IMG/VR virus record: IMGVR_UViG_3300007735_000717
Location: 1-39,787 of that record
Length of the DNA stretch: 39,787 nucleotides
Direction: 5' to 3' (one strand)
DNA from: a virus
The number at the start of each line of letters is the position of its first letter. The first letter of the stretch is position 1. The notes beneath the pieces are model-generated. The model worked only from the letters and a program-made list of their open reading frames with translations. It did no database searches and was not told the origin of the DNA. A program made the translations under genes and the position numbers. Below are positions 1,346 through 34,328 of this stretch, piece by piece.

Positions 1346-2056
1346 ATGGCAAAGAAGAACAAGAACGCGAAGAAGACCGATGCGCCTCTCACCGATGCCG
1401 CACGCAACGCCTTGTCGGCGTTCGCTGCAACGGCGGCCGATTGCATCAACACCATCGATACGGGCTCGCGTGAATTGGCGAAGATTGTGGGCAACGCGCA
1501 TGCGGAGTATGTCGCGAAGGGTGCGCGGGCCGCGAAGGGCTTCTACGCGGTGTGGTCCGCCATGTTCACTGCCGAAGTGGCCGCTACGCTCACAAAGGGC
1601 CGCGTGTCGCAATTGGTCGCGGCATCGCGGGCCATCGGGGCATTCGGCGACATGGGCGAACGCAAGGCACGCGATCTGATGCAAGCCCTGCGCGCCGCGA
1701 AGTTCAACACCGACGCCATCGGTCCCGACGCCAAGAAGGCTGTGGCGAAGGCGGGTGGCGTCGATGCCTATATCGCGGCCCATGCGAAGAAGGCGGCCGC
1801 AATCGCTGCGCGTGCCACCGCGGATAGCGGCAAGCCCGCGGTTTCCGATGCCGCCATGCGCGAGGATCCGATGGCATACCTGCACGATGTCGGGATGCGG
1901 ACCCTCGCATTTATCGGGTCCGATGCGGACATGTTGAAGGCTTGCGCCGAAGCCCTCGAAATGCTCGCGGCAGACTACCGCAAGGCGGCCACGCCGAAGG
2001 CGGAACCGAAGCCCTCCGCCGACGGCAAGGCGAAGAAGATTCCCGCGAAGGCTTGA
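1346..2056 (+). CDS. Ala/Lys-rich early protein with possible helix-turn-helix
   Basis: A protein of 236 residues, largely alpha-helical by composition, with Lys-rich termini (MAKKNKNAKK and AKKIPAKA). Residues about 71-100 contain TLTKGRVSQLVAASRAIG, which reads like the turn and recognition helix of a helix-turn-helix. The gene is a stand-alone unit: two palindromic sites and a TTGACA element precede it and a strong terminator follows 21 bases after its stop. Codon choice differs from the structural genes, with far more GCG, GCC and CGC, suggesting later acquisition or a different host-like bias. It could be a nucleoid-like or regulatory early protein and is the best local candidate for the factor binding the palindromes, but that is inference. 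No family is recognised with certainty. Confidence 0.75.
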   Translation: MAKKNKNAKKTDAPLTDAARNALSAFAATAADCINTIDTGSRELAKIVGNAHAEYVAKGARAAKGFYAVWSAMFTAEVAATLTKGRVSQLVAASRAIGAFGDMGERKARDLMQALRAAKFNTDAIGPDAKKAVAKAGGVDAYIAAHAKKAAAIAARATADSGKPAVSDAAMREDPMAYLHDVGMRTLAFIGSDADMLKACAEALEMLAADYRKAATPKAEPKPSADGKAKKIPAKA

Positions 2057-3678: not shown

Positions 3679-3694
3679 GTTTACCGCGGTATAC
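3679..3694 (+). promoter_or_regulatory. Operator-like palindrome, site 6 (GTTTACCGCGGTATAC)
   Basis: It begins two bases after the stop of the previous gene and lies 18 bases before the ATG at 3713, next to AAGGAG. The sequence is identical to sites 5 and 10. Confidence 0.75.
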
Positions 3695-4389: not shown

Positions 4390-4492
4390 TCTCAACCCCT
4401 TCTTCAGGGCGTGCATCTACGCCTACTGGAGCGTCGTTCTCATCGGCCTGCTGTGGTTCGCCACTGCTTACTTCAGGCTTGACAAGGACTAG
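4382..4492 (+). CDS. Tiny membrane protein, TTG start (36 residues)
   Basis: A TTG at 4382 overlaps the stop of the previous gene, with GGAG a few bases upstream. The product starts LDNLNPFFRACIYAYW and has one strong hydrophobic helix (YWSVVLIGLLWFATAYF) followed by RLDKD. One transmembrane segment is predicted. The overlap, the ribosome-binding site and the clean membrane helix support it, but it is short. The promoter at 4479 lies over its end. Confidence 0.55.
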   Translation: MDNLNPFFRACIYAYWSVVLIGLLWFATAYFRLDKD

Positions 4493-4507
4493 CGTTCATG
4501 GGATACT
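4479..4507 (+). promoter_or_regulatory. Putative host sigma-70-type promoter
   Basis: TTGACA (4479-4484), 17 bases, GATACT (4502-4507). The -35 is perfect and the -10 matches at four of six positions. It shares CTTGACAAGG with the promoter at 2363. It would drive the GP88-like gene, with palindrome site 7 just downstream at about +30. Confidence 0.6.
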
Positions 4508-4545: not shown

Positions 4546-4561
4546 GTATACCACGGTATAC
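4546..4561 (+). promoter_or_regulatory. Operator-like palindrome, site 7 (GTATACCACGGTATAC)
   Basis: Full copy 23 bases before the ATG at 4585. The palindrome and the following ACTCACAGGAGTCAC ribosome-binding stretch repeat the cassette at 2438 almost exactly, indicating duplication of a whole leader. Confidence 0.75.
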
Positions 4562-4584: not shown

Positions 4585-5409
4585 ATGGAACCGTTTGCTT
4601 TGCCACAGGCACTGCCTGTCTCACCGTATGCACGCCTCAAGGGTGCATGGGATCGCCGCCTGCCTTACTCCGAGGCCATCCGCATTTGGCGCAGGCTCAG
4701 CGGCAGCCCACTGCTCACTGCTCCCGATGCCAACGCCAAGTTGGCCAAGGGCAAAGGCCGTGGGTGGAACACGATCAGTCTCTCGCTCGCACCTGCTGAC
4801 ATGTCGGGCATCAATGTGTGCCCGTGCTCGACGCAGGAGTGCCGCATGTCGTGCATCGGTCACTCGGCAGGCAATGCCCGTCGATACCCGGCTGTTGTGG
4901 AGTCCCGTGTCATGCGTACCAAGTTTCTGTTCACGCACCCCGAGGCTGCAATGGCCATCATCGAGCACGAGTTGCACAAGTGGAGCATCAAGCTTGGCAA
5001 GCGTGCCAAGAAGGCTCTCCGTCTCAACGCCTTCAGCGACATTGCGTGGGAGGTGCTGAACCCAGGTCTCCTCGAGTACGCCAAGTCCCTTGGCTTCCGT
5101 CTCTACGACTACACCAAGATCGCTGCTCGACTGGCTCGGCCATTCGATGGCTACGACCTGACGCTGTCGTACAGCGGGGAGAACTGGCACGAGTGCCTGG
5201 ATGTTCTCAAGGCAGGCGGCCGTGTGTCCATGGTCTTTGCGGGTTGGTTCCCTTCGGAGTTCCGCGGGTTTACCGTGGTAGACGGGGACGCCCATGACCT
5301 GCGCTTCCTTGACCCCAAGGGGTGCATCGTTGGTCTGAAGTTGAAGGGGGTCAAGCCTGAGACCGCAGGCTCCTTCGCGGTCAAGGAGGATTGCATGCAG
5401 AGTGCCTGA
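4585..5409 (+). CDS. GP88-like phage protein (gene 88 family)
   Basis: A protein of 274 residues. The Cys-rich stretch NVCPCSTQECRMSCIGHSAG (about residues 77-96), then a long helix with RVMRTKFLF, then RLNAFSDIAWEVL, match the layout I know from the actinophage gene 88 protein family. The function of that family is not established. The clustered cysteines suggest a metal or iron-sulphur site. The start at 4585 is set by CACAGGAG at proper spacing behind site 7. Palindrome site 8 lies inside the gene and encodes GFTVVDGD. The end overlaps the next gene by eight bases. Family membership is by pattern memory, so moderately sure. Confidence 0.7.
   Translation: MEPFALPQALPVSPYARLKGAWDRRLPYSEAIRIWRRLSGSPLLTAPDANAKLAKGKGRGWNTISLSLAPADMSGINVCPCSTQECRMSCIGHSAGNARRYPAVVESRVMRTKFLFTHPEAAMAIIEHELHKWSIKLGKRAKKALRLNAFSDIAWEVLNPGLLEYAKSLGFRLYDYTKIAARLARPFDGYDLTLSYSGENWHECLDVLKAGGRVSMVFAGWFPSEFRGFTVVDGDAHDLRFLDPKGCIVGLKLKGVKPETAGSFAVKEDCMQSA
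5268..5283 (+). promoter_or_regulatory. Operator-like palindrome inside a gene, site 8 (GTTTACCGTGGTAGAC)
   Basis: A full copy within the GP88-like coding region, identical to site 1. It could act as a roadblock (stoperator-like) or regulate the downstream small gene and methyltransferase. Confidence 0.6.
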
Positions 5410-5620: not shown

Positions 5621-5636
5621 GTTTACCACGGTATAC
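5621..5636 (+). promoter_or_regulatory. Operator-like palindrome, site 9 (GTTTACCACGGTATAC)
   Basis: Full copy ending 11 bases before the methyltransferase ATG (5648). It abuts the AGGAG ribosome-binding site, so a bound protein or the RNA fold could affect translation start as well as transcription. Confidence 0.75.
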
Positions 5637-5647
5637 AGGAGCAACAC

Positions 5648-6643
5648 ATGCGATACCTTTCAGTATGCAGCGGCATCGAAGCCGCATCAGTAGCGTGGCA
5701 CGACCTGGGTTGGACCCCAGTCGGATTCAGCGAGATCGAATCATTCCCCTGCTCCGTGTTGGCGCAGCGGTTTCCATCAGTCCCTAACTTCGGAGATCTA
5801 AATGAGCAAGCGTCGTGGCCACTCCAAGCAGGATCAGCAGACCTTGTGGTCGGAGGAACTCCCTGCCAGTCCTTCAGTGTCGCAGGGAAACGCGCCGGCC
5901 TCGCTGACCAAAGAGGCAGAGTTATGCTCTCGTACCTTGAGTTGGTTGAGCGTGTCCGACCGCGATGGGTTGTATGGGAGAATGTCCCTGGTGTTCTGTC
6001 CTCCTCAGAAGGACAGGATTTTGGCTGCTTCATCCAGTCGTTGGCCGACATGGGGTATTGGACTAACTGGCGGGTTCTTGACGCTCAATGGTTCGGAGTT
6101 CCCCAGAGACGCCGTCGTGTCTTTGTTGTCGCAAGTCTTGGAGACAACCGCGCAGCCCAAGTACTCTTTGAGCGCGAGAGCTGCGGCGGGAATCCTCCTG
6201 CGAGCGGAGCGTCGCGGCAAGGCAATAGTGGAGCCGTTGCGGACTGCGCTGCTACGGTCAGCAGCAAGTGGAGCAAAGGCACAGGAGGACCATCAGGAGA
6301 CGAGTGTCAGAACCTGACTGTCTTCCGCAAGTCCCGTCGTGCCCAGTCGTCAACCGATGACGAGACCTGGGTTCCGGCCACCGTGGCCAACACCCTCAAC
6401 CAGTTTGACACTGGTGAACGGGATACCCATGGTGTCGTCGAGGATCTCCATGTCCGCCGGCTCACGCCCATCGAGTGCGAGCGGCTGCAAGGATTCCCTG
6501 ACAACTGGACACTGGTGAATCACCGTAACAAGCCAGCCGCGGATGGTCCGCGGTACAAGGCACTAGGCAACAGCATGGCTGTCCCAGTCATGCGTTGGAT
6601 TGGCAAGCGCATCTTCGCGCTTGACAATTCACTGTCGGTCTGA
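5648..6643 (+). CDS. dcm: DNA cytosine-5 methyltransferase
   Basis: A protein of 331 residues with all the main C5-methyltransferase motifs: SAM-binding VCSGIEAASVA (residues 6-16), the catalytic loop GGTPCQSFSVAGKR (Cys73), ENVPG (111-115), GVPQRRRRVF (150-159), a variable target-recognition stretch (about 165-250), then RRLTPIECERLQGFPDNW and RYKALGNSMAVPV. It transfers a methyl group from SAM to C5 of cytosine in a target sequence. With no restriction partner nearby it is a solitary phage methyltransferase, probably shielding phage DNA from host restriction. The target is not deducible. It is preceded by palindrome site 9 and its 3' end contains a strong promoter. Confidence 0.95.
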   Translation: MRYLSVCSGIEAASVAWHDLGWTPVGFSEIESFPCSVLAQRFPSVPNFGDLNEQASWPLQAGSADLVVGGTPCQSFSVAGKRAGLADQRGRVMLSYLELVERVRPRWVVWENVPGVLSSSEGQDFGCFIQSLADMGYWTNWRVLDAQWFGVPQRRRRVFVVASLGDNRAAQVLFERESCGGNPPASGASRQGNSGAVADCAATVSSKWSKGTGGPSGDECQNLTVFRKSRRAQSSTDDETWVPATVANTLNQFDTGERDTHGVVEDLHVRRLTPIECERLQGFPDNWTLVNHRNKPAADGPRYKALGNSMAVPVMRWIGKRIFALDNSLSV

Positions 6644-6649
6644 TATATT
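6621..6649 (+). promoter_or_regulatory. Strong putative sigma-70-type promoter
   Basis: TTGACA (6621-6626), 17 bases, TATATT (6644-6649). This is the closest match to consensus in the window. It spans the last codons of the methyltransferase gene. Palindrome site 10 lies about 40 bases downstream of the expected start, positioned to block elongation. A second weaker pair (CTGACG 6684, TATACC 6707, 17 bases apart) overlaps site 10 itself. Confidence 0.72.
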
Positions 6650-6695: not shown

Positions 6696-6711
6696 GTTTA
6701 CCGCGGTATAC
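6696..6711 (+). promoter_or_regulatory. Operator-like palindrome, site 10 (GTTTACCGCGGTATAC)
   Basis: Full copy 24 bases before the ATG at 6736, followed by GACACAGGAGATAC. It is identical to sites 5 and 6. Confidence 0.75.
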
Positions 6712-7144: not shown

Positions 7145-7942
7145 ATGAATCCATTTTCCAATCAGACTCGTTCCGTCCCATCCAACCTACCTTGGGGATC
7201 TCGCGTCTCCATCGACGACATCTCCCGCATGCCTGTGCCGGAGGCCACCTCGTCGTACACCCCTGTCCGGCAGGACAACCTGTTCAACGCATGGACCGTC
7301 ACTCTCGAACGCTACGGTTATCAGATTGCACACGAGGAGCACTGGGTGACCAAGAGCCAGGATGTGTTCATCTCGAAGGTCCGAGTCATGGCTCCATGGC
7401 TGCCCACTGGCATGGGCTTCACATGGGAGACAGCCATGATCAACTCGTACAACAAGCAGGTGGCAGTCAAGAATGCAGTGGGCACTAGCGTGTTCGTCTG
7501 CACCAACGGATGCCTGTCTGCCGAGTACCTGATGCGTACCAAGCACACGACCAATGTGTGGGATCGCCTCAGGGTGTACATCGACCGCAGCGTGGTTACC
7601 TTGGAGAAGCGAGCTGCGTCGATCAACCAGTTGTTCCACTCGTTCCGCAACACGGACGCCAGCAGTCTGCGACAGGTTCACCATGTCGTCTGCCGTGCAT
7701 ACGATGAGAACATCATCCCGGCATCCGGCATCGGTCAGGTGCTGGATCACTGGAAGACCCCGGAGCACGCCGAGTTCAAGGATCGCAATGTGTGGTCCCT
7801 GTACAACGCCTTCACTTCCTACGACCGTGGTCGCAACCTGTTCGAGCGCAGCACGCGCACCAATCGTTTGCAGAACATCCTCAACGAGGAGTTCGGCATC
7901 AACGAGACTACTCCGCAGGAGACTGCGAACAACCTGGTGTAA
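7145..7942 (+). CDS. DUF932-like phage/plasmid protein
   Basis: A protein of 265 residues. The ATG at 7145 follows CACACAGGAGATACACCA. The middle contains SVFVCTNGCLSAEYLM, then a helix-rich region, and the end has VWSLYNAFTSYDRGRN. This series (a VxCxNG strand, followed about 115 residues later by an LYNAxT helix) is what I associate with DUF932, found in phages and plasmids and without a settled function. A hairpin and then a rho-independent terminator follow, so it closes the early operon. It could be an early DNA-metabolism accessory; that is inference. Confidence 0.65.
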   Translation: MNPFSNQTRSVPSNLPWGSRVSIDDISRMPVPEATSSYTPVRQDNLFNAWTVTLERYGYQIAHEEHWVTKSQDVFISKVRVMAPWLPTGMGFTWETAMINSYNKQVAVKNAVGTSVFVCTNGCLSAEYLMRTKHTTNVWDRLRVYIDRSVVTLEKRAASINQLFHSFRNTDASSLRQVHHVVCRAYDENIIPASGIGQVLDHWKTPEHAEFKDRNVWSLYNAFTSYDRGRNLFERSTRTNRLQNILNEEFGINETTPQETANNLV

Positions 7943-7958
7943 TCCCCCTGCACCCACA

Positions 7959-7989
7959 GTTGCCGTAGGTACGATGTGCCTACGGTAAC
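7959..7989 (+). other. Hairpin without T tract upstream of the terminator
   Basis: GTTGCCGTAGG (7959-7969) pairs with CCTACGGTAAC (7979-7989) around a nine-base loop, with a single G-U pair. It is not followed by T residues, so it is not itself a terminator. It could protect the 3' end of the early mRNA or be an RNase III-type processing site, as occur between T7 early genes. Confidence 0.7.
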
Positions 7990-8002
7990 TCTCCTGTGAG
8001 TG

Positions 8003-8038
8003 GCCCCTCCTATGCTTCGCGCTAGGGGGGGCTTTTTT
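8003..8038 (+). terminator. Rho-independent terminator between early genes and RNA polymerase
   Basis: GCCCCTCCTA pairs with TAGGGGGGGC (one wobble) across a loop containing TTCG, followed by six T. It separates the early operon from the RNA polymerase gene, so the polymerase needs read-through or its own promoter. Confidence 0.92.
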
Positions 8039-8049
8039 ATTTAGCGTTT

Positions 8050-8077
8050 TTGGCGTACCAGTATACCATGGTAGACT
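8050..8077 (+). promoter_or_regulatory. Putative promoter of the RNA polymerase gene
   Basis: TTGGCG (8050-8055), 16 bases, TAGACT (8072-8077); both hexamers match consensus at four of six positions. The palindromic site at 8061-8076 covers the spacer and most of the -10, so a bound protein would block it. Confidence 0.5.
8061..8076 (+). promoter_or_regulatory. Operator-like palindrome, site 11 (GTATACCATGGTAGAC)
   Basis: A full copy, the only one with centre CCATGG, between the terminator and the RNA polymerase gene, overlapping the putative promoter and 37 bases before the ATG. The placement suggests direct control of the switch to middle and late transcription. Confidence 0.72.
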
Positions 8078-8113
8078 GATTGTGTAGATCGCTGACTCTA
8101 TAGCAGGAGAAAT

Positions 8114-10531
8114 ATGAAGAAGGCCAAGACTCAGACGCAGATCAACAAGGACATGGTGGAGGATGGCAAGAACCGCCACTGGTCCAAGGTCCACAAGGCT
8201 CAGACGCTAGGCATTGAGTCCACCACGCCGGCTGGCTCCAGGCTGCTGTCCAAGGCCGTGCCCAATCTGTCTAGCCGGCTGAAGCGATGGCTGAAGGAGT
8301 GCGAGCACAAGCCTGGGCGACGACACCGAGCGCACCAGTACCTGACCATGCTGCCAACCGATGTGATCGCCGGCCTGACCTGCCAGTGCATCATTGACTG
8401 CATCAGTCAGAACCGAAAGATCACGGCAACGGCGTATCAAGTGGCCAAGTTGCTCGAAGATGAGGCCAAGTTCCGCCATATTCAGGACACTCAGCCTGCA
8501 ATGTGGAGCCACATCAAGCGCAACATCGACAAGGGATCGGCCTACAACACCAAGGCTAAGTTCATCAAGCGCACGGCCAAAGACACCCATGTGGACCTCC
8601 CCTCGTGGGACCGCAAAGACATGGTCCAGGTTGGACTTGTGTGTATCGAGCTGATGAGGGAGGCCACGGGCATCATCGAGGTAGTCACTCGTACCAATGT
8701 CATGGGCAAGGGCGTCACGCTCGTGCGCCCAACAGACGAAGTCATGCAGTGGATCAAGACTGCCCACAAGATGGGCGAGTTCATGAAGCCTGTGTACATG
8801 CCCATGGTCGAGAAGCCTGTGGACTGGACTGCACCAAACCTTGGAGGCTATCCGGCAGGAGCGTTCCGCACCAAGCCGTTGGTCAAGGGGCGGGACAAGA
8901 ACTGGATCTCCACGGTCACATCCACTGGCATGCCAATGGTGTACAAGGCCGTGAACACCCTTCAGTCAGTGCCCTTCATGATCAACTCCCGTGTGTACAA
9001 GGTCATGAAGGAGACTTGGGAATCGGGTCTCTCACTTGGCAGCCTGCCGGCTGTCAGTGACGATCCGCCACCGCCGTTGACCGAAGACATCAAGTCGGAT
9101 CCAGAGAAGTTGCGAGCCTGGAAGAAGGCAGCAGCTCGCCACTACTTCGAGCTTGAGCGGCAGACCAGTCGGCGTCTACAGGTGTCTAAACTCCTGTACC
9201 TTTGCGACAAGTTTGAAGCAAATGACCTCTACTTCCCGCGTCAGTTGGACTTTCGCGGACGCGAATACCCAGTGCCGTATTACCTCCAGCCGCAAGGCCC
9301 GGAGTGGGCGGCCTCGCTTCTCCTTTTCAAGAACGGTACGCCAATCAACGACAAGGTAGCGGAGCGTTGGCTTGCGATTCATGTGGCTAACTGTTGGGGT
9401 AACGACAAGGATTCATACGACGACCGCGTCAAGTGGACCCAGGATCACGAAAGCGTGATAGTAAGCATTGCATCAGACCCGCTGGCGTGTCGTGAATGGG
9501 TCAAAGCCGACAAGCCATGGAAGTTTTTGGCTGCTGCGTTCGAGTGGGCAGAGTTCAAGAAGCATGGCTACGGCTATGTTAGCCGACTCCCGATCAGCCA
9601 AGATGCAACAACGCAGGGCTTGCAGATTTACTCGATGCTGCTCAGGGACAAGGTCGCAGGCGTTGCCACCAATGTACTACCCCGTGCTACACCGAGTGAC
9701 ATCTACAGTGAGGTTGCATCAGCCGCGGTCAACAAGTTGACCACCGAGGATAGACCTGAGTTCACCGAATACGCGAAGAAATGGCTGAAGTTTGGCATCG
9801 ACCGCAAGTCCACCAAGCGTCAGACCATGACTCTCCCATACGGTTCAACCTTCTACTCCTGCCGTCAGTACACCGTCGAGTGGTTCTACGAGCAGATCAA
9901 GAAGAACGGCAAGGAGAATCCATTCGGCACTGAGACCTACAAGCCATGCAACTACTTGGCCGAGATCATCTGGGCTGCAATCGGTGATGTCGTCAGGTCA
10001 GCTCGAGTCGGCATGGACTGGTTCCAAGAGGTGGCCGATGTCTGCGTGAAGAACAAGATCAGCCCGAAGTGGTGGACTCCGTGCGGATTCCTGGTGGACA
10101 TGCAGTACGAGATGAGCACCAGCGTGCCCATCAAGACGGCCATCGGACGCACCATCAGGCAGCATGTGGTCCGCATTGGCAACGGAAAACTGGATGCGCG
10201 TAAGACTCACAACGGCATCGCTGCCAATGTGGTGCACTCCTTGGACGGCATCGGTGGGCTCTTGGGTCTGACCGTGAACAGCGGTGTACACTTCGGGGTT
10301 CAGAACTGGATGACCGTACACGACTCCTATGCGACGACAGCCGGCGAGTCCCAGGGTCTCTACGACTGTCTGCGTCAGGCCACCGTCTCAATCTTTTCTG
10401 AGAATTTCCTAGAAAGTTTCAAGAAGCAGATCGAGTCAATGCTACCATTGAACCAGAAGTTACCTGAGGTTCCTACTCAAGGAGACATGAATATCTCTGA
10501 AGTCATCAGAAGTCTCTACTACTTCTCTTGA
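8114..10531 (+). CDS. T7-type single-subunit DNA-directed RNA polymerase
   Basis: 805 residues (T7 gp1 has 883). Motifs seen: DFRGREYPV with catalytic Asp379 (T7 Asp537); QGLQIYSMLLRDKVAG; KSTKRQTMTLPYG with Lys568 and Tyr576 (T7 Lys631 and Tyr639, same spacing); HSLDGIGG; MTVHDSYAT with His736-Asp737 (T7 His811-Asp812). The C-terminus YYFS resembles the aromatic end needed in T7. It transcribes phage middle and late genes from its own promoters. The start follows GCAGGAGAAAT. It lies alone between the terminator at 8003 and the promoter at 10550, behind palindrome site 11, so its supply seems separately controlled. The last 150 bases and the following gap are richer in A+T than the gene body. 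Confidence 0.98.
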   Translation: MKKAKTQTQINKDMVEDGKNRHWSKVHKAQTLGIESTTPAGSRLLSKAVPNLSSRLKRWLKECEHKPGRRHRAHQYLTMLPTDVIAGLTCQCIIDCISQNRKITATAYQVAKLLEDEAKFRHIQDTQPAMWSHIKRNIDKGSAYNTKAKFIKRTAKDTHVDLPSWDRKDMVQVGLVCIELMREATGIIEVVTRTNVMGKGVTLVRPTDEVMQWIKTAHKMGEFMKPVYMPMVEKPVDWTAPNLGGYPAGAFRTKPLVKGRDKNWISTVTSTGMPMVYKAVNTLQSVPFMINSRVYKVMKETWESGLSLGSLPAVSDDPPPPLTEDIKSDPEKLRAWKKAAARHYFELERQTSRRLQVSKLLYLCDKFEANDLYFPRQLDFRGREYPVPYYLQPQGPEWAASLLLFKNGTPINDKVAERWLAIHVANCWGNDKDSYDDRVKWTQDHESVIVSIASDPLACREWVKADKPWKFLAAAFEWAEFKKHGYGYVSRLPISQDATTQGLQIYSMLLRDKVAGVATNVLPRATPSDIYSEVASAAVNKLTTEDRPEFTEYAKKWLKFGIDRKSTKRQTMTLPYGSTFYSCRQYTVEWFYEQIKKNGKENPFGTETYKPCNYLAEIIWAAIGDVVRSARVGMDWFQEVADVCVKNKISPKWWTPCGFLVDMQYEMSTSVPIKTAIGRTIRQHVVRIGNGKLDARKTHNGIAANVVHSLDGIGGLLGLTVNSGVHFGVQNWMTVHDSYATTAGESQGLYDCLRQATVSIFSENFLESFKKQIESMLPLNQKLPEVPTQGDMNISEVIRSLYYFS

Positions 10532-10549: not shown

Positions 10550-10577
10550 TTGACATAGTAAGAAGACTTAGTATTCT
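10550..10577 (+). promoter_or_regulatory. Putative sigma-70-type promoter of the replication operon
   Basis: TTGACA (10550-10555), 16 bases, TATTCT (10572-10577), in an AT-rich gap between the RNA polymerase and the SSB gene. Two palindrome variants lie at about +15 to +40, again at the head of a transcription unit. Confidence 0.55.
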
Positions 10578-10596
10578 TCTCTTACAGTAATACAAG

Positions 10597-10623
10597 GTAT
10601 ACACAGGGTATACCAAGGTAAAC
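10597..10623 (+). promoter_or_regulatory. Overlapping operator-like palindrome variants, site 12
   Basis: GTATACACAGGGTATAC (10597-10613, one base longer centre) overlaps GTATACCAAGGTAAAC (10608-10623, centre AA instead of RY). Three GTATAC/GTAAAC-type half-sites in a row suggest a degenerate or cooperative double operator. It lies 26 bases before the SSB start. Confidence 0.6.
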
Positions 10624-13642: not shown

Positions 13643-15360
13643 GTACCGTAATCTTCGACATTGAAACCAACGGCATTGAGGACTTCAAGCACCTCTCGGA
13701 TCTCAAGGTCGTGCACTGCATCGCTTTGGACGCTGGAGACGGCGTCAAGGTTTACCACGGTAAACACATCGCTGATGCGCTGGAGATCCTGAAGAAGGCC
13801 AAGAAGATTGTGGGCCACAACATCATGGGTTTTGATCTTCGGGCGTTGTCCAAGGTGTACGGCTACGAGCCGACTTGGGAGACATCCGTGGTGGACACCT
13901 TGGTGGCTGCTCGTCTGTGCTGGCCTGATGTGAAGGAAGACGATTTCATCAAGCTGGAGCGCGGCTTCCCGAAGCAGTTGATTGGCAAGCACAGTCTCGA
14001 AGCCTGGGGCCACCGCCTTGGGGTTCTCAAGGGGGACTTCAAGTCGAACAACTCGTTCGACAAGTTCACCGATGAGATGGCTGAGTACTGCGCCAAGGAT
14101 GTTGAGGTGACCAAGGCGTTGTACGCGAAGATCTTGGGCGAGGAGCCGACGCTGATGTCTATGGCCCTCGAGCACGACTTTGCGGCCATCATTCAGGAGC
14201 AGGAGCGCAGCGGCATCCCGTTCAACGAGCGTGCTGCTACGGATCTGTACACCACCCTGACAGCCGAGAAGGATGCGCTGTCTCGTCGTCTAGTCGATCT
14301 CTTCCCGCCCAAGGTCGTGCAGTTGAAGACCAAGAAGAAGTACATTCCATTCAACCCAGGCAGCAGGCTTCAGATTGCCGAGGGTCTGATGGCGAAGCAC
14401 AACTGGCGTCCTTCGGAGTTCACTCCCGATGGCCGGCCAAAGGTCGATGAGGAGGTGCTGTCCTCGCTGGAGTACGAGGAGGCCAAGTTGCTCAGTAAGT
14501 ACCTGCTCATCGAGAAGCGCATCGGTCAACTTGGGGATGGCAAGGAAGGCTGGATCAAGCTCTCAAAGAACGGGAAGATCTTTGGCCGGGTGAACACCAA
14601 CGGAGCCGTGACTGGCCGTTGCTCACACTCTGGTCCAAACATGGCCCAGGTTCCGAGCGTGAAGAGTCCCTATGGCAAGGAGTGCCGCGCTTTGTTCTAC
14701 GCTCCAGCCGGCTTCAAGATGGTCGGCGTGGACGCGAGCGGTTTGGAGTTGAGGTGCTTGGCCCACTACATGGCCAAGTACGACGATGGCGTCTATGCGA
14801 AGACCGTGGTCAGCGGGGACATCCACACGATGAACCAGCAGGCCGCGGGGTTGCAGACCAGAGATCAGGCCAAGGTGTTCATCTACGCGCTCGTGTATGG
14901 CGCAGGTGACGAGAAGATTGGCAAGATCATCGGAGGTAGTCGACAGGAAGGAAAGCGAGTCAAGGATCGATTCCTTTCCAAGGTTCCTGCGCTCAAGCGG
15001 CTCAAGGATGACATCGAGCGAGCCATGGAGACTCGTGGATACCTGATTGGACTGGATGGCCGCAAGTTGCGCCCACGGTCAAAGCACGCAGCCCTGAACA
15101 CCCTGCTTCAGTCTGCCGGAGCGATTCTCATGAAGCAGGCAACAGTCCTCGCTTGGCGTCGATTCAAGAAGGCCAAGATCGAGGTCACCCAGGTCGCGCA
15201 TGTGCACGACGAAATCCAGTACATTGTTAAGGAAGACAATGCAAAACAGACAGGTCAACTCTGCGTCGAATCCATCCGCCTATCCGGTGAGGTCTTCAAG
15301 TTCCGATGCCCGCTTGATGGCGAGTTCCGAATCGGAGGGAACTGGGCAGAGACGCATTGA
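13639..15360 (+). CDS. Family A DNA polymerase with 3'-5' exonuclease (T7 gp5-like)
   Basis: A protein of 573 residues. The exonuclease begins at once with VIFDIETNGIEDF (Asp7, Glu9), later VGHNIMGFDLRAL and YCAKDVEVTKAL. Polymerase motif A is VGVDASGLELRCLA (Asp365), motif B RDQAKVFIYALVYGAG (Arg408, Lys412), motif C HVHDEIQYIV (His523-Asp524-Glu525). It replicates the phage genome. T7 gp5 has 704 residues; the shorter length leaves little room for the thioredoxin-binding loop, so processivity is probably achieved another way (inference). Palindrome site 13 is inside the exonuclease part. A homing endonuclease gene overlaps its last 44 bases. Confidence 0.97.
   Translation: MSTVIFDIETNGIEDFKHLSDLKVVHCIALDAGDGVKVYHGKHIADALEILKKAKKIVGHNIMGFDLRALSKVYGYEPTWETSVVDTLVAARLCWPDVKEDDFIKLERGFPKQLIGKHSLEAWGHRLGVLKGDFKSNNSFDKFTDEMAEYCAKDVEVTKALYAKILGEEPTLMSMALEHDFAAIIQEQERSGIPFNERAATDLYTTLTAEKDALSRRLVDLFPPKVVQLKTKKKYIPFNPGSRLQIAEGLMAKHNWRPSEFTPDGRPKVDEEVLSSLEYEEAKLLSKYLLIEKRIGQLGDGKEGWIKLSKNGKIFGRVNTNGAVTGRCSHSGPNMAQVPSVKSPYGKECRALFYAPAGFKMVGVDASGLELRCLAHYMAKYDDGVYAKTVVSGDIHTMNQQAAGLQTRDQAKVFIYALVYGAGDEKIGKIIGGSRQEGKRVKDRFLSKVPALKRLKDDIERAMETRGYLIGLDGRKLRPRSKHAALNTLLQSAGAILMKQATVLAWRRFKKAKIEVTQVAHVHDEIQYIVKEDNAKQTGQLCVESIRLSGEVFKFRCPLDGEFRIGGNWAETH
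13750..13765 (+). promoter_or_regulatory. Operator-like perfect palindrome inside DNA polymerase, site 13
   Basis: GTTTACCACGGTAAAC lies within the 5' part of the polymerase gene (coding VYHGKH). Its arms are perfectly inverted, and only the central CA/CG step breaks symmetry. It could attenuate polymerase transcription if bound. Confidence 0.6.
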
Positions 15361-15956: not shown

Positions 15957-16707
15957 CGGCGACATCGCCATCTACCAGATCGCCGTGGCTGTTGAAGAGC
16001 CAATCGACTGGGGCGACGATCTGTGGACCCTGCACGCTGACGCCTCCGAGGCCAAGCAGCGGCTGGACTACTGGATCAAGAACCTGATGGAGAAGTTCAA
16101 CGCAGGTCGGTGCATCTTCGCCTTGACCTCAGGCGACAACTGGCGCAACAAGGTGATGCCCTCGTACAAGGCCCACCGCAAGACCAACAGGAAGCCAGTG
16201 GTGTACTCGGCCCTGAAGGACTACATCAGGATGGCCTACCGTGTGTATGAGTCTCCGACGCTGGAGGCTGACGATGTGCTCGGTCTGCTGGCTACTGGGG
16301 CGTACCCAGGCATCCGAGATCCGATGATTGTGGTGTCCGCTGACAAGGATCTAAAGACAATTCCTTGCCGGCTGCACAACCCAAACGACGGATCTGAGCG
16401 TACAATTACGCTTCAAGAGGCCGACTACAACCACCTCTACCAGACACTGATTGGAGACACTTCTGACGGCTACCCCGGATGTCCCGGTGTTGGCCCGAAG
16501 ACCGCTGAGAAGTTGCTGGCAGAACACGGAGCCGTGTGGTCTACCGTGGTAAACGCATACATAAAGGCAGGACTCAACGAACATGAAGCACTACAACAAG
16601 CGCGAGTTGCTCGAATCCTTCGCAAAGGGGAGTATTCATTCCGAACCCACAAAGTCAAACTCTGGACTCCGACCCATGAATCGAGACCGACTGCTGGAAC
16701 TGCATAA
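15937..16707 (+). CDS. 5'-3' exonuclease (T7 gp6-like, FEN family)
   Basis: A protein of 256 residues. It begins MKTLLIDGDIAIYQIA with the metal-binding Asp. Then SYKAHRKTNRKP, ESPTLEADDVLGLLAT, MIVVSADKDLKTIP and GDTSDGYPGCPGVGPKTAEKLL match the acidic metal sites and the helix-hairpin-helix of flap/5' exonucleases. In T7, gp6 removes RNA primers and degrades host DNA for nucleotides. The C-terminus ARILRKGEYSF...VKLWTP is the usual end of this family, which supports the full length despite a 32-base overlap with the next gene. Palindrome site 14 is within it. Confidence 0.94.
   Translation: MKTLLIDGDIAIYQIAVAVEEPIDWGDDLWTLHADASEAKQRLDYWIKNLMEKFNAGRCIFALTSGDNWRNKVMPSYKAHRKTNRKPVVYSALKDYIRMAYRVYESPTLEADDVLGLLATGAYPGIRDPMIVVSADKDLKTIPCRLHNPNDGSERTITLQEADYNHLYQTLIGDTSDGYPGCPGVGPKTAEKLLAEHGAVWSTVVNAYIKAGLNEHEALQQARVARILRKGEYSFRTHKVKLWTPTHESRPTAGTA
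16539..16554 (+). promoter_or_regulatory. Operator-like palindrome inside exonuclease gene, site 14
   Basis: GTCTACCGTGGTAAAC, coding for STVVN. It is the only copy with GTCTACC as left half-site. It sits near the 3' end of the replication operon. Confidence 0.58.
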
Positions 16708-22010: not shown

Positions 22011-22619
22011 ATGGCTCTTGGAAAGACCACTGAACTCGACGCTGTGAACACGATGCTCTCCATCATCGGAGAGCCCCCGGTAAACTCCATCTCCGGCACT
22101 GGCCGCGCTGATGCTCTCATTGCCACCAACATCCTGACCGAGGTCTCTCGGGAAGTCCAGGGTGCAGGGTGGCATTTTAATACCAACCGGGATGTGGAGA
22201 TGGTTCCTGACCAGTTCGGCAAGATCTACTTGGCCGACAACATCGTCCGTGTGGACACTGAAGAGCCCAATCAGACCCCGGACATCGATGTGGTTGTCCG
22301 TGGCTCTTACCTGTACAACCGCAAGGGGCTGACTGATGTGTTCTCCTCGTCGATCAAGGCCACGGTGATCTACCTGTTCGACTTCGGCGAACTGCCTGAG
22401 GCTGCTCGTCGCTACATCATGATCCGCGCTGGTCGCATCTTCGGTGACCGCATGGTCGGCTCTGAGAAGCACAACCGGTTTACCACGGTAGACGAGTACA
22501 AGGCTCTGGCCGACATGAAGGAGTACGAGTGCGACACTGGCAACTACTCCATCTTCGATAACTACGATATTGGCGTCATTGTGGATCGCACCAATGTGGC
22601 CCGTCGAGTCAACTACTGA
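22011..22619 (+). CDS. Tail tubular protein A, gp11-like
   Basis: 202 residues (T7 gp11: 196). ELDAVNTMLSIIGEPPVNSI, then LTEVSREVQGAGWHFNTNRD, then ARRYIMIRAGRIFGDRMVGS are typical of T7 tail tube A (gatekeeper). It forms a ring below the connector. Palindrome site 15 lies in it (coding RFTTVDE). The stop overlaps the next ATG by one base. Confidence 0.95.
   Translation: MALGKTTELDAVNTMLSIIGEPPVNSISGTGRADALIATNILTEVSREVQGAGWHFNTNRDVEMVPDQFGKIYLADNIVRVDTEEPNQTPDIDVVVRGSYLYNRKGLTDVFSSSIKATVIYLFDFGELPEAARRYIMIRAGRIFGDRMVGSEKHNRFTTVDEYKALADMKEYECDTGNYSIFDNYDIGVIVDRTNVARRVNY
22478..22493 (+). promoter_or_regulatory. Operator-like palindrome inside tail tube A gene, site 15
   Basis: GTTTACCACGGTAGAC, one of two copies in structural genes. 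It is the only site in the tail-tube block. Confidence 0.57.
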
Positions 22620-28755: not shown

Positions 28756-31700
28756 ATGACCCAATTTCAATACGGACAGTCGGTCACCAGTGACCCGATG
28801 ATTCCTCCGTTCCAGGTTCCAAGCCCCGCACCTCTTCCACCCACCCCACTAACCGCTGATCAAGAGACTTCGGCAGCGATCAACGCTGAGAAGACTGGTC
28901 CAAATCTGTGGACCGCCCTCACTCAGGGAACGACTCTAAACGACATTGCGGACTGGGGCGTTCGCAAGTGGATGGGGGGAGAAACTGAACCTGGCTGGAG
29001 GCAGAAGCACGACATCAAGACGCTGTTCGAGGGGGTCGCTCCACAGTTTCACGATGATTTGCTGAGCGAAGCGTCGTACTTGGATGCGCTCCATGTCAAA
29101 GACTCCATTGCCATGAAGATGGCAGCCGCTGACAAGGTGGCTCAATACGGCGCAGCCGGAGCCTTTGCCCAGTTCGGTATGGGCATTGTTGAGTTTGCTC
29201 CGCTCATGTCGGTTCCCGGATCCGGGGCTGCCATGGCTTTCATGGCCGGAGGAACTGACGCTGTCTCGGTAAGCAACGCTGCCCGTGTCGCTCTGGCCTC
29301 TGGTCGAGCTGCGGAAGCCGCAAAGATCGCCAGTCGAATCGGAGTCCTTCGCCGGCTGGCTTACGGCGGCATCTCAGGCTCTGCTCAGGGTGTAGCGTTT
29401 ACCGCGGTAGACGGGGTGTTCAATCCGACCGTGGAAGGCGAGGATGTCCTTCATGCTGCCTACTGGGGTGCTGGTCTGGGCGGAGGGGTCAACGCATTCT
29501 TCGGCAAGGGCATTGTGCGGGACTACATGGTCAAGCACGCCCTGAAGTACGAGAAGCAACTTCAGACCGCTGGCAAGGAACTCGCTGTCCGCTTCAACGC
29601 GGACAATGTGCTTGAGCAGGTGGCTCAGCGATTCGGCATCGCGGAGGCTGACGCCAAGAACATCATCGTTGGTGCTCGTCTCCTTGAGAACCCCGTGGCT
29701 GGCACTGGCCTCGAGGTTGCCGTTGCTGGACCCAAGGCCCGCCTTCGTCGCGGTCAAGTGGTCATGGAAGAGACCATTATTACCGATGCGGCGGGCGTGG
29801 AGAAGGCCAAGGTTCAGCATCTGAATGACGGCAAGATCGTCATCCGTGCGCTGACTGAGTCCAAGAGTGGCGACTCCTTTGTCCGTAGCATGGCCGAGAC
29901 TCTGCGTGCCCGCATCTTCACTGAAGAGAACGGCCTGCTGAGTAACCGCGAAGTGTTGATCATGGATGCATTCACCCGTGGTGACCTGCCGGCTATCTCC
30001 CGTCTCGTCCCGGTTACCGAGACGGTTGAGGCCGGCATTGGTCCCCACCCCAAGGACATGCGTCTGGGCCTGAACCTCACCGACAGTGAGCGTCAGACTG
30101 TTACTCAATCACCCACCTTGGCGGCAGCCCGTCGTGATCTGGGCCGTGCACGGTCTCTCCTCCAGCAGGCCATCGAGAAGTTCCAGAATGTCATGGACGA
30201 CGCCAGTGCCATGCTTACCGAGGCTGAGACCGAGGAAGCCTTGGCTGCCCATGAGTTGGCCATGTCCAATACGCCGGAGTACAAGGCCGTCCTGAAGGCC
30301 AGTGCTCGGGCCAAGGACGCGGCTAAGAAGGTGGCTGAACTTGAGGTTCCCGAAGTCACAGAGAACATCAAGCGGATCATCGAGGCTCGCCGTGCGGTGC
30401 TGGAGAAGCTCCAGGCTCAGCAGAAGGCCACCCGTGGCTTCCAGAAGACCGAACGCATTGCCACGGCCACCTTGAATGAGGCCGAGGAAATGGTCCGTAA
30501 GGCCAAGGAGGCGATAGACAGTAAGGGACCGGAGACGCAAAACACTCCTTCAACAGTTGATGTTGTTGGCTCAAAAGGTGAGAGACTTCAGTGGGTTCGT
30601 GCATCAGATCCCGGACAGCAAGAACTTGTTTATCTCCTCAAGAGTGGAAAGGATACTGTCGGCTCTTTCCAGTTTATCTGGGACAGTAAAAACAGAGCTT
30701 TTAGACCGCAGGCCACTCTTGGTGTCAACATCCGTAAGCAATATCAAGGTCAAGGTCTCTACGGTAAGTTGCTAAAAGAACTGTCTAAGCATGTAGATCT
30801 AGGCTCCACATCTACTTCAGAAGCACTGGGTACACAGGTCAATGCTGTCAAAGTCTGGAAGAAACTTGGGGCATCAACAGAAAAGTTAAAGGGGAAAAAC
30901 AAGTTTGTTGATTCAGCGGGGAATGTGGAGGCTTTCTTCCTAAGAAGGACTTCTAGCCTTCAGAATGAACTTGCAGCCGCCGAGCAGGTGCTGAGTGAGT
31001 TCCGTTCTCGGGAACTGGTCCAGCAGTTGGGACAGGCGGCTCACGAGAAGCGGCAGGCTTATGGCCTCGCTAGGAAGGAACTCCAGGATCTCAATACCGC
31101 TGTCGCCGAGAGCAAGCGTCTCAAGCGTCGGATCAGCGCAGACATCAAGAAGAGCCTTCAGGAGGCCGCCGACAAGGAAGCGAAGGCCGCTGATGAGCTG
31201 GCCCAGGCTGAGGAGGCTCTGATCAAGGCTGACCGAGTGGCCAAGGAGGACGCCTACGCTGCTGCTCGCAAGCTGGCCAATAGCATCGAAGAGGATGCCG
31301 CCAGTTCGGCTCAGAATGCCAAGAACAGCGTGGCTGACGCCGAGGCCGCCTTGGCTGACGCTGAGATGGCTCTGGCCATGGCTGACCCCGAGTTCATGAT
31401 CAAGAAGCGCACGGCTCCCCTGAGCAACGAGGAGAAGACTCGGTTCCAGGATGCCTTCATCAACTGGCTGACCAAGAACGAGATTCCCGCTGAAGTCCCG
31501 GTGAACGCTCGTGCGGAGTTCCAGTCGGCCATGCAGAAGCTGAAGGAGACCCTGATGCGGGTCTATGCAGATGCAACCGATCCTCGCATCGGTGATGTTC
31601 CGGTCAGCCCTGAGGTTGACCTGTTCTTCCGAGAGATCTTCATCAAGCACTCCGAGATGAAGGCGAAGACTGTGATGGCGGCTGAGCAGACTTCGATGTA

Positions 31701-34320
31701 CGCACGGATTGCTGCCATTGCATCTGGAGCAGCTGTTCCTGAGAAGCCGGCTAAGGCTGAGGTTACTCCGAAGTCTCTGGACCCAGACTGGAAGGACAAC
31801 AACCGGGCCGATATCCGTCTGCTCGGTTTCGACATTACTCGTGCTCCGGGCATGCGGTTCCTGAACCAGGCTCTGGCCTCGATCAACTCCAAGATCGGTG
31901 CAGCCCAGTGGCTTGGTGAGCGCATGATGTGGTCCCGCATTGGCCTGATTGATCCCAACGGCAAGATGGTTCCTCAGCGGGCCACCATCAGCGAACTCTG
32001 GACTCGCATCCGTAACCCCATGGAACACCGCCTCAAGCGGGCGTTCGACAAGGGGTACAACGAGTACACGACTGGCAAGGAGTTCACCAAGATCAACCCG
32101 GCCGAGCGCACCAAGAACGCCTTCCAGCACAAGGCGAAGGAGAAGTTCAGCATTGAGGTCTACAACGAGATCCTCAAGCCCGGTTCCTCTGAGAGTGCAG
32201 CAGTCAAGACGACAGCCAAGGCGTTTGCTGAGCACTTTGACCGCATGCGGAAGATTGCGTTGGAGATGGAACTCCCAGGGTTCTCTGCTCTGGACACCAG
32301 CGTTGGCTACTTCCCCCGTATGTGGAAGTGGCAACTCCTCGACGACTTCCTCGCTAACAAGCAGAGCGTGGCTGATCTGACCAAGTTGATCAAGAAGTCC
32401 ATGACGATTGAGATTGTCGAGAGCGCGGATGATCCGCGAATCGCTCAGGGACTTGCCCTGACCGAGGACGGAGCATGGGCACTCGCTAATTACACGGCGG
32501 AACGCCTCAGGTCTCTGGCTCGCGGCGAGCAGAAGAACGCCTATCTGGACATGGATGAGATCATGCTTGCCGTGCTCAGGGAGCATGTTCCTCCTCCGCG
32601 ATCCTCTGCCGGCGTGAAGGGTACTCCTCACGGTAACCGTCGCATCCCGATGGATGTCACGATCAAGGTCAAGTTGGACGATGGTCGTATCGTATCGCTG
32701 TCCGACTTCGTCTCTAACGATGTCGTCCACGCAACCGAAACCTACAATCGTTCGGTCTTTGGCGCGATTGCTGAGAAGCAGTTGGTCGGAGAATTCCGTG
32801 ATCAGTTGATCGCCCGTGGAAAGATGACGGCTGAGGAGGCGGGGACGAAGATCACGAAGTGGAGCGATGTGATCACCTATGTGAAGTCCTCGGCTGAAGA
32901 GGGCCGCTATGTGACCACCAAGGAAGTCGAGCGAACCGTGGCCTCTCTTGAGGAGCTGTACGCACTTCTTCGCCATTCTCCGATGCCATCGATCTTGGGA
33001 GAAGTCTTCAGCCCCATGGCGGGTCGGCTCATGAAGCTTGGCTACCTCCAGAACGGGCAGGCGTTCGGCCTTGCTCAGTTCCTCGAGGTGTCCCGCATCA
33101 TTGGTCGAACCTCGGCTGCTTCGGTCATAAAGCAGATGCCCATCGTTCAGGAACTCGCTCAGGCTGCCCGTCGTGGTGAGATTCCCAAGGAGCAGTTCCC
33201 GCTGCTGCACTGGATCGATCAGGCTTTGGGAACGGGCGGTGATCGCCTGCGCCGAACGACCCTGTCCATGATTGACTCGCGTCTGGAGAAGTACTCCACG
33301 ACGACTCAGCAAGGCTGGTGGCGCAAGGCTGAGAACTGGTTCCGCAACTGGGTGGATCCGAACCTCAACGAAGCCTCTACCGTCTTCTCCGATGTCACTG
33401 GTCTGGCTCCGCTGACCACGGCCACTCAGCACCTGATCGCCACCTCGATCATTCAAGAGATGTACGACGGTGCTCTGCTTGGCAAGGCCATCTACTCCGA
33501 TGCACTGCTGGCTCAGTGGGGCGTGACTCGGGCTGAGTTCGAGATCATGGTGTCGTCGCTGCGTAAGACAGCTAAGGTGAACAAGGTAGGTCGAGTGATC
33601 GACTTTGATCACACGCTGTGGGACCAGAATATCTACGGTCGTTTCTTGGACTTCATGGAGCGTGGCGTTGTGTCCACCATCCAAGATCCTCCGACCCGCG
33701 GCGACTTTGCAAAGCCGCTGTGGAACGATCTTGGTCGCCTGTTCCTCCAGTTCCGCTCGTTCAACATCAAGGGCATCAACAACTTCTTGCTGACCTCGGT
33801 GCAGCGTCGAGATGCGCGTCTTGCCGTGGAGTACTCGGTGTCCATGGGCCTTGGCCTGATGACTCAGATGGCTCGCAAGGCCATCTATGCCCCAACCTAC
33901 AAGGACGAGAAGGATCAGAAGAAGTACTGGGAGACTTCATTCTCTCCCCAGGCTCTGACTGGCATGGCTCTGTCTGGCCCTACTGAGAACTGGCTCTTCC
34001 TCGCCACGCTGGATCCCATCGCCCAGTTCACCACGGGAAGTCCGATGTTCAGCCAGAGCGTTCGGTACTCAGACCGAGGTGGAAGCGTGCTGGATGTCAG
34101 CGCAACTCCGGCTGCCGGCGTGATCAAGTCTGTGTACGACTCTGTCTCTGCCCCAGTGCAGTCCCTGCTCATGGAAGATCGTCAGTACACCCAAAGCGAT
34201 CTCAACAATGTCACCTCCATGATCATCGGTCGTAAGTTCATGGGACTCAATCAGGGATTCAACTACATCGAGAAGTGGCTCGGCTCCGGTCTGCCCAAGG
34301 AAAAGAAGCCGAAGGACTGA
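28756..34320 (+). CDS. Giant internal virion protein D, gp16-like, with inserted domain
   Basis: 1854 residues, against 1318 for T7 gp16. The N-terminus (Pro-rich, then LWTALTQGTTLNDIADWGVR) shows no lysozyme-like transglycosylase motif such as T7 gp16 carries. Residues about 460-900 are long charged coiled coils, interrupted by a GNAT-like domain (about 592-733). The C-terminal half (from about 1010: DIRLLGFDITRAPGMRFLNQ, FSALDTSVGYFPRMWK, RLFLQFRSFNIKGINNFLLT) matches the ejection-protein core of this family. It forms the inner-membrane part of the DNA ejection conduit. Palindrome site 16 is inside (coding AFTAVDG). It ends 30 bases before the tail fibre gene. Confidence 0.9.
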   Translation: MTQFQYGQSVTSDPMIPPFQVPSPAPLPPTPLTADQETSAAINAEKTGPNLWTALTQGTTLNDIADWGVRKWMGGETEPGWRQKHDIKTLFEGVAPQFHDDLLSEASYLDALHVKDSIAMKMAAADKVAQYGAAGAFAQFGMGIVEFAPLMSVPGSGAAMAFMAGGTDAVSVSNAARVALASGRAAEAAKIASRIGVLRRLAYGGISGSAQGVAFTAVDGVFNPTVEGEDVLHAAYWGAGLGGGVNAFFGKGIVRDYMVKHALKYEKQLQTAGKELAVRFNADNVLEQVAQRFGIAEADAKNIIVGARLLENPVAGTGLEVAVAGPKARLRRGQVVMEETIITDAAGVEKAKVQHLNDGKIVIRALTESKSGDSFVRSMAETLRARIFTEENGLLSNREVLIMDAFTRGDLPAISRLVPVTETVEAGIGPHPKDMRLGLNLTDSERQTVTQSPTLAAARRDLGRARSLLQQAIEKFQNVMDDASAMLTEAETEEALAAHELAMSNTPEYKAVLKASARAKDAAKKVAELEVPEVTENIKRIIEARRAVLEKLQAQQKATRGFQKTERIATATLNEAEEMVRKAKEAIDSKGPETQNTPSTVDVVGSKGERLQWVRASDPGQQELVYLLKSGKDTVGSFQFIWDSKNRAFRPQATLGVNIRKQYQGQGLYGKLLKELSKHVDLGSTSTSEALGTQVNAVKVWKKLGASTEKLKGKNKFVDSAGNVEAFFLRRTSSLQNELAAAEQVLSEFRSRELVQQLGQAAHEKRQAYGLARKELQDLNTAVAESKRLKRRISADIKKSLQEAADKEAKAADELAQAEEALIKADRVAKEDAYAAARKLANSIEEDAASSAQNAKNSVADAEAALADAEMALAMADPEFMIKKRTAPLSNEEKTRFQDAFINWLTKNEIPAEVPVNARAEFQSAMQKLKETLMRVYADATDPRIGDVPVSPEVDLFFREIFIKHSEMKAKTVMAAEQTSMYARIAAIASGAAVPEKPAKAEVTPKSLDPDWKDNNRADIRLLGFDITRAPGMRFLNQALASINSKIGAAQWLGERMMWSRIGLIDPNGKMVPQRATISELWTRIRNPMEHRLKRAFDKGYNEYTTGKEFTKINPAERTKNAFQHKAKEKFSIEVYNEILKPGSSESAAVKTTAKAFAEHFDRMRKIALEMELPGFSALDTSVGYFPRMWKWQLLDDFLANKQSVADLTKLIKKSMTIEIVESADDPRIAQGLALTEDGAWALANYTAERLRSLARGEQKNAYLDMDEIMLAVLREHVPPPRSSAGVKGTPHGNRRIPMDVTIKVKLDDGRIVSLSDFVSNDVVHATETYNRSVFGAIAEKQLVGEFRDQLIARGKMTAEEAGTKITKWSDVITYVKSSAEEGRYVTTKEVERTVASLEELYALLRHSPMPSILGEVFSPMAGRLMKLGYLQNGQAFGLAQFLEVSRIIGRTSAASVIKQMPIVQELAQAARRGEIPKEQFPLLHWIDQALGTGGDRLRRTTLSMIDSRLEKYSTTTQQGWWRKAENWFRNWVDPNLNEASTVFSDVTGLAPLTTATQHLIATSIIQEMYDGALLGKAIYSDALLAQWGVTRAEFEIMVSSLRKTAKVNKVGRVIDFDHTLWDQNIYGRFLDFMERGVVSTIQDPPTRGDFAKPLWNDLGRLFLQFRSFNIKGINNFLLTSVQRRDARLAVEYSVSMGLGLMTQMARKAIYAPTYKDEKDQKKYWETSFSPQALTGMALSGPTENWLFLATLDPIAQFTTGSPMFSQSVRYSDRGGSVLDVSATPAAGVIKSVYDSVSAPVQSLLMEDRQYTQSDLNNVTSMIIGRKFMGLNQGFNYIEKWLGSGLPKEKKPKD
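29397..29412 (+). promoter_or_regulatory. Operator-like palindrome inside gp16-like gene, site 16
   Basis: GTTTACCGCGGTAGAC. The most downstream full copy in the window; no further full copies were seen between 29413 and the end. Confidence 0.57.
30530..30955 (+). other. GNAT-like domain inserted within the gp16-like protein
   Basis: Residues about 592-733 of the gp16-like protein. The segment changes from the GC-rich, charged coiled coil to AT-richer codons (AAA, TTA, AGA, GTT, GAA). It encodes a globular fold: LQWVRASDPGQQELVYLL, GSFQFIWDSKNRAFRP, LGVNIRKQYQGQGLYGKLLK (like GNAT motif A, Q/RxxGxG), then VKVWKKLGAS and AFFLRRTSS. The coiled coil resumes straight after (LQNELAAAEQVLSEFR). 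It looks like a recently acquired acetyltransferase-type module carried into the virion. Confidence 0.8.
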
Positions 34321-34328
34321 TCTCTCAC

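Follow-up and report, generated by a model that had tools for sequence, protein, structure and literature searches.

Dispersed operator-like palindromes and a conserved RNA module upstream of the RNA polymerase gene of a T7-like phage

In T7, the host polymerase reads into gene 1, and textbooks present the T7-like phages as strictly lytic, with early transcription that is largely unregulated. Whether the polymerase gene is reached in the same manner was asked for a T7-like phage represented by virus record IMGVR_UViG_3300007735_000717 (the window, that is, the whole stretch of 39,787 bases analysed). Its RNA polymerase gene (8114-10531, plus strand) encodes a single-subunit T7-like enzyme (phrog_414, E 9e-218), and a T7-type primase-helicase, DNA polymerase and head-tail adaptor were found in the window along with T7-type tail fibre and terminase domains. 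With such a polymerase and gene set, the phage is assigned from its sequence to the Autographiviridae. The polymerases of the nearest named phages among the 40 matches listed (Pelagibacter phage HTVC031P, Pseudomonas phage LUZ100 and others) were approximately 32-37% identical to it.

The last early gene ends at 7942 and is followed, before the polymerase gene, by a hairpin, a terminator and a promoter-like pair of hexamers with a palindrome:

7958-7990, plus strand: hairpin 1 of a 3' UTR RNA module (folding z -6.1; both-side changes in 7 of 8 pairs in 10 aligned sequences)
7988-8004, plus strand: linker with TCCTGTGA (7992-7999), complementary to early ribosome-binding sites (invariant CCTGTGA, complementarity tests)
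8002-8038, plus strand: intrinsic terminator ending the early transcript before the polymerase gene (fold, T6 run, both-side changes in 5 of 9 helix-2 pairs)
8050-8077, plus strand: putative weak sigma70-like promoter, TTGGCG-16-TAGACT, with an extended -10 (8 of 12 consensus bases)
8061-8076, unstranded: operator palindrome 11, GTATACCATGGTAGAC (palindrome at the same place in 10 of 11 relatives' leaders)

Hairpin 1 had a folding energy of -25.5 kcal/mol over 7940-8000 (z -6.1), which none of 200 shuffles equalled, and the terminator, with TTTTTT after it, one of -23.1 kcal/mol (z -3.1), equalled by one shuffle in 200. The hairpin and terminator noted in a preliminary description of this locus are thus real, both folding far better than shuffled sequences; a simple terminator scan did not report the terminator at 8002-8038, probably because its stem is interrupted. 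The same description had placed a moderate promoter beneath the palindrome, and here only the overlap was upheld. Site 11 covers most of the promoter spacer plus the -10, and is unusual among the operators in overlapping a -10-like hexamer, but the two hexamers (8050-8055 and 8072-8077, with TG before the -10) match 8 of 12 consensus bases, a score equalled by 7.7% of 300 shuffles of the 81-nt polymerase leader and below the threshold of a simple promoter scan. By its sequence this promoter is weak and not distinguishable from chance. Taken individually, the best promoters in the relatives' leaders were likewise no better than chance (shuffle fractions 0.07-0.76). A promoter of at least 10/12 was absent from all 11 polymerase leaders examined (the window and ten relatives), and those of L017 and L021 leave hardly any space for one between the terminator and the ribosome-binding site. 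The polymerase gene seems poorly served by the host polymerase, being insulated, weakly promoted or read through, and covered.

To follow this arrangement among relatives, viral contigs were searched with the polymerase, which returned 10 loci at first and then 13, eight of which had already been found. The polymerase leader was present in 11 relatives, and the terminator was followed by a palindrome in 10 of them (L001-L006, L008, L017, L020 and L021), counts that are not independent given the near-copies L004/L005/L006 and L017/L021. The palindrome is imperfect in L003, and the L020 leader has two; the sole miss, L019, has a leader that is simply the end of the upstream gene.

The window contains 15 exact 16-bp matches to GTNTACCRYGGTANAC, site 11 among them, whereas 300 dinucleotide shuffles contained none, so that the palindrome of the preliminary description is real as well. 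The other sites are listed below without strand, each an exact motif match unless otherwise stated:

1137-1152: operator 1, upstream of the regulator gene
1308-1323: operator 2, in the regulator leader, 22 nt before the start
2235-2250: operator 3
2438-2453: operator 4, 48 bp after promoter 2363-2390 (motif and promoter scan)
2642-2657: operator 5, approximately 16 nt before the next start
3679-3694: operator 6, 18 nt before the next start
4546-4561: operator 7, 39 bp after promoter 4479-4507 (motif and promoter scan)
5268-5283: operator 8, within gene 4585-5409
5621-5636: operator 9, before the methyltransferase gene
6696-6711: operator 10, 47 bp downstream of 6621-6649, the best promoter (11/12; motif and promoter scan)
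10608-10623: variant operator (15/16), 31 bp downstream of promoter 10550-10577 and ahead of the ssDNA-binding protein gene and the replication genes
13750-13765: operator within the DNA polymerase gene
16539-16554: operator within the exonuclease gene
22478-22493: operator within gene 22011-22619
29397-29412: operator within gene 28756-34320

A version of the palindrome with a free centre has 17 copies in the window. The sites are palindromic (15 forward and 15 reverse matches); ten of the 15 are intergenic and five lie within genes, and eight of the intergenic ones precede a start codon by 11-37 nt. Positions 3 and 14 change independently of each other (5 of 15 Watson-Crick pairs, 4.2 expected), which argues for the half-sites of a DNA-binding protein dimer and not for an RNA stem. 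At 10590-10623, downstream of a 10/12 promoter, the inverted repeats GGTATAC-N5-GTATACC and GTATACCAAGGTAAAC overlap; judging from their sequence, these repeats before the replication genes appear to be a second gate, comparable to the one at the polymerase gene. The DNA methyltransferase gene (5648-6643) has an operator of its own upstream (5621).

The position of the sites relative to promoters was examined at eight loci, with L002, L003, L005, L006, L017, L025, L027 and others left aside. Of 29 plus-strand promoters scoring at least 10/12, 23 have an operator 31-58 bp downstream, when approximately 2.0 would be expected; the minus strands of the same eight loci contain no promoter of at least 10/12. 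Within the first 12 kb, the four best plus-strand promoters (10-11/12) are each followed by an operator at 31-48 bp. The six strong promoters with no downstream operator include the regulators' own in L011 and L020, which carry an operator upstream instead. This fixed spacing after strong sigma70-like promoters suggests a transcription roadblock, and since the palindrome lies approximately 40 bp downstream of the promoter at most early units, roadblocking, including that of terminator read-through, fits better than promoter occlusion. The earlier proposal that a bound protein gates the polymerase gene is therefore retained in part: a conserved operator-like palindrome and a candidate binder are present, but the gate would act on elongation more readily than on a promoter.

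Operator sequence and spacing differ among the relatives. The operators of L002 and L020 are GTTTACCRTGGTAAAC-like, and those of L004, L005, L008, L017 and L021 are GTTTAC-N4-GTAAAC, with a Shine-Dalgarno AGGAG in the centre of most early operators of L004 and L008. In L001, the polymerase of which is 77% identical to that of the window, the sites are nevertheless of another form, TTTACA-N3-TGTAAA, 17 bp with the outer bases. Operators were found near the regulator gene in the window and in L014, L015, L011, L004, L020, L021 and L027.

The candidate operator-binding protein is encoded by the first early gene, which has operators in its own leader and its own terminator at approximately 2077-2111:

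1346-2056, plus strand: candidate operator-binding protein, 236 aa, helix-turn-helix-like (orthologs, co-occurrence, models)

Orthologs with 22-81% identity occupy the same position in L014, L011, L020, L004, L008 and L021 and share an R-V/F-SQ helix motif; L015 and L027 each contain a partial ortholog. A query of viral contigs with the single protein gave no match; alignment-based queries of the same kind of data did find homologs. The regulator and the sites tend to be found together: among 26 records the regulator profile matched five (G001, G004, G008, G011 and G013), with 11-18 sites each, whereas the T7-like record G012, whose polymerase is 49% identical, has neither a regulator match nor a site. 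Three fragments (G003, G005 and G031) contain sites with no regulator found in them, and in the remaining 17 records neither the polymerase nor the regulator was matched and no more than one site was present.

Profile searches placed the regulator in no Pfam or PDB-sequence family, and it had no match in plasmids or named phages. Its best PHROG match, to a tail-completion family (E 0.0017), was weak and was treated as chance. Foldseek gave no match at E <=0.001 against PDB and viral models. The DNA-binding half was modelled with a pLDDT of 90, and, with 54 chains aligned, eight of its 23 listed structural matches were ParB-family DNA-binding domains (SopB three times, ParB three times, VirB twice; Z 2.6-4.5, below the tool's own level for meaning), the absence of any other family from the VIA list being no evidence. 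The modelled fold thus weakly resembles these domains, which is a hint and not a proof; at E <=1, all seven regulator orthologs lack a ParB CTPase or ParB-type Pfam family. The product of 1346-2056 is probably a new, undescribed DNA-binding protein. Another conserved early protein could also be the operator binder; a DUF932-like neighbour was considered and is unlikely, as its homologs occur in phages devoid of sites. Just upstream of the regulator there is a sub-threshold match to Peptidase_M78 (IrrE/ImmA-like), at 614-1003 in the window and 2657-3031 in L008, the window copy reading HEVLE, without the second His, and the L008 copy HELLH. ImmA-type proteases can inactivate repressors.

From the sites, the terminator, their conservation, the co-occurrence of sites and regulator, and the promoter geometry, we infer that site 11 is probably one operator of a phage-wide network run by the protein of the first early gene, which would bind as a dimer and repress both the early units and the polymerase gene by roadblock. 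After phage entry, the host polymerase would transcribe the early units, and the first early gene, from its own promoter-terminator unit, would yield a dimeric DNA-binding protein with a ParB-like helix-turn-helix. This regulator would bind the 16-bp palindromes and autoregulate; on accumulating, it would sit approximately 30-50 bp past strong host promoters and stall the host RNA polymerase, its own unit included, and would also close the polymerase gene as well as the promoter located ahead of the replication genes (variant operator 10608). Three layers, namely the terminator, a promoter no better than weak and site 11, would keep polymerase expression low. Phage polymerase would thus be made only while the repressor is scarce, and host early transcription would be shut as the repressor accumulates. 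The polymerase made before closure would run the remaining programme. The outcome would be an early shut-off timer, and a repressor that wins early would also give a stay-or-go switch; we regard a lytic timer as likely as such a switch.

A possible but rather doubtful alternative is that the same repressor network serves as an immunity or dormancy system, with the phage persisting, perhaps without integration. In its favor, the regulator gene comes first among the early genes and has a terminator and operators of its own, an operator also lies before the replication genes (10608), and the sub-threshold M78/IrrE-like peptidase gene is situated just upstream of the regulator. Operator specificity drifts among close relatives, as is described for the heteroimmune L5-clade phages (PMC6550527), and gating of the polymerase by a MarR protein has been proposed for LUZ100 (PMC10134795). 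On the other hand, integrase and resolvase (PF00589, PF00239) and ParA-type (PF13614) genes were detected in none of six records, window included, and a scan of bacterial genomes with the polymerase alignment gave 38 pattern matches, none of them a relative; it is on these two results that our low estimate is based, and they also leave the stay-or-go switch of the preliminary description with no independent support. The regulator itself has no plasmid or named-phage match, and the window peptidase lacks its second His. T7-like polymerases on plasmid records were only distant (four records, 23-34% identity).

A second alternative, which we find unlikely, is that a phage-type promoter, TCGCTGACTCTATA (8089-8102), is the main driver of the polymerase gene, in the manner of LUZ100 phi1, with site 11 as a modulator. 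LUZ100 indeed has a terminator (T4) and then the phage promoter phi1 before its polymerase gene, and the tail-fibre gene is preceded by a similar, conserved CACACTATAAGGA (34327; L016 2311). However, the exact motif occurs once in the window, its eight matches at up to three mismatches compare with 6.3 expected, and it is absent from the leaders of L003-L006, L008, L017, L020 and L021; a set of phage RNA polymerase promoters could not be defined in the window. It is quite improbable that a host regulator binds the sites or that they have a partition (centromere-like) function: 16-bp palindromes and a weakly ParB-like fold would suit such a role, but the site sequence differs between related phages, the spacing to promoters is fixed, and the six records contain no ParA-type gene. 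That the palindromes are RNA hairpins acting as processing or translation signals is rejected as very improbable, for although eight of 15 lie shortly before start codons and those of L004 and L008 contain AGGAG, positions 3 and 14 do not covary, leader 8044-8116 folds no better than shuffles (z +0.53), and some sites are inside genes and others upstream of promoters.

The repressor network that we favor has partial parallels. KorB operators sit at many promoters; as in the KorB/ParB systems, the operators here are palindromic and dispersed, and the model of the candidate DNA-binding domain weakly resembles SopB, VirB and ParB. The difference lies in the ParB CTPase domain, which Pfam did not detect here, and in the ParA-type partner (PF13614), found in none of the six records. 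KorB of plasmid RK2 is described as binding palindromic operators, and as sliding and working with KorA (PMC11790492). For temperate T7-like phages, descriptions already exist of a terminator ahead of the polymerase gene and of a regulator proposed to act beside its promoter: in LUZ100 a MarR-like regulator is proposed to act on sites by the polymerase promoter (PMC10134795), and the record annotations list a MarR-like protein with an integrase for LUZ100 and an HTH protein with an integrase for Pasto. The window resembles both in its T7-like genome and in the terminator upstream of the polymerase gene (T4 in LUZ100; 8823-8857 in Pasto). It differs in that an integrase gene near the polymerase gene characterizes the LUZ100-type group, whereas PF00589 and PF00239 are absent from the six records here, in its regulator, and in a network of 11-18 sites spread across the early units. 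No MarR match was found among 10 early proteins in Pfam at E <=1, and no comparable dispersed palindrome in the stretches of LUZ100, Pasto and HTVC031P that were examined.

The nearest working analogue appears to be the stoperators of the L5 clade, described as one repressor site repeated over the genome, mostly outside promoters, which blocks elongation and is phage-specific (PMC6550527). The window also has many repeated sites mostly away from promoter cores (15 sites; 31-58 bp after promoters). L5 sites are reported as 13-bp, asymmetric and oriented (PMC6550527; PMC9283540), and because the window sites are palindromic, membership of this class fails while the analogy may hold; the sites of the window and its relatives are 16-17-bp palindromes at a fixed distance after promoters, in an unrelated phage type. 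In the literature searched, on temperate T7-like phages, stoperators, ParB/KorB and phage small RNAs, we found no description of this operator network or of the RNA module described below. A lineage with cognate operators at nearly every early promoter and at the polymerase gene, and with drifting specificity, would be a clean natural set for repressor-operator coevolution, and would strengthen the doubts recently raised as to whether the Autographiviridae are strictly lytic.

The hairpin and terminator also appear, from alignment, to be a conserved RNA module in their own right, with a nearly invariant UCCUGUGA linker, a feature missed by the preliminary description. Compensatory changes were observed in both helices across 10 sequences (12 of 17 pairs, 82.8% of cells paired); none of 500 shuffles reached this level, in a control that ignores relatedness, and slid controls were far lower. 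Within the linker, CCTGTGA is invariant in all 11 aligned sequences (alignment A7), and TCCTGTGA, which occurs once in the window, is complete in 10 of them, L020 having an extra C. The complement, TCACAGGA, has three plus-strand copies in the window, all within early ribosome-binding regions. Leaders of 12 early starts (the doubtful 4384 being left out) were compared with those of 23 later starts, with the polymerase gene, the starts at 48, 269 and 424, and the ambiguous starts at 614, 11562, 15200, 16583, 17386, 17397, 20432, 25327 and 37222 set aside. The match to the linker complement averaged 7.8 nt (up to 12) in early leaders versus 4.6 nt in later genes (p 1.3e-4, window), although the leaders at 2438 and 4546 are alike around the operator and may not count as independent. 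Predicted linker-leader duplexes reached -24.9 kcal/mol, and none of 2000 linkers with shuffled flanks did as well.

In the relatives, their own linkers also match early leaders, but with fewer matches, and sense linkers often showed no excess over antisense (G004 4/4, G008 6/7, G005 4/8). The available stretch of L019 lacks TCCTGTGA and yet has three ACAGGAGA leaders. Predicted pairing between linker and leaders is thus well supported for the window and weaker for the group, and RNA carrying the UCCUGUGA linker is a possible second, RNA-level brake on the early genes. The combined proposal is a two-layer brake in a lineage with no detectable integrase, in which roadblock by a new ParB-fold repressor would be joined by a regulatory RNA from the 3' end of the early transcript (hairpin, linker and terminator) that pairs with the ribosome-binding sites of the repressor and other early genes; we regard it as speculative. 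If true, the terminator insulating the polymerase would also be the source of an RNA that shuts off translation of early genes. Both the operator-regulator pairs and the conserved RNA directed against ribosome-binding sites lend themselves to direct testing with reporters in laboratory strains.

The one Rfam match, to anti-hemB, was sub-threshold (16.5 bits versus 49.5, E 0.2) and was treated as chance. The loop of hairpin 1 (7968-7982) contains a -10-like hexamer, TACGAT in the window, TATACT or TATAAT in eight relatives and TAAACT in L017 and L021; transcription starting there would yield an RNA with the linker at its 5' end.

Both ends of the window share 127 identical bases (1-127 and 39661-39787). 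This length is typical of a k-mer assembly overlap rather than of a measured terminal repeat, and the repeat may be the assembly overlap of a circular or redundant genome. Before the tail-fibre gene, CTCACACTATAAGGA (34320-34335; L016 2306-2321) is kept in the record of L001 and resembles a T7-type phage promoter, and a looser version of it lies at 8089-8107, before the polymerase gene. The tail-fibre gene itself contains, at 34792-35084, direct repeats of approximately 111 nt spaced 123 nt.
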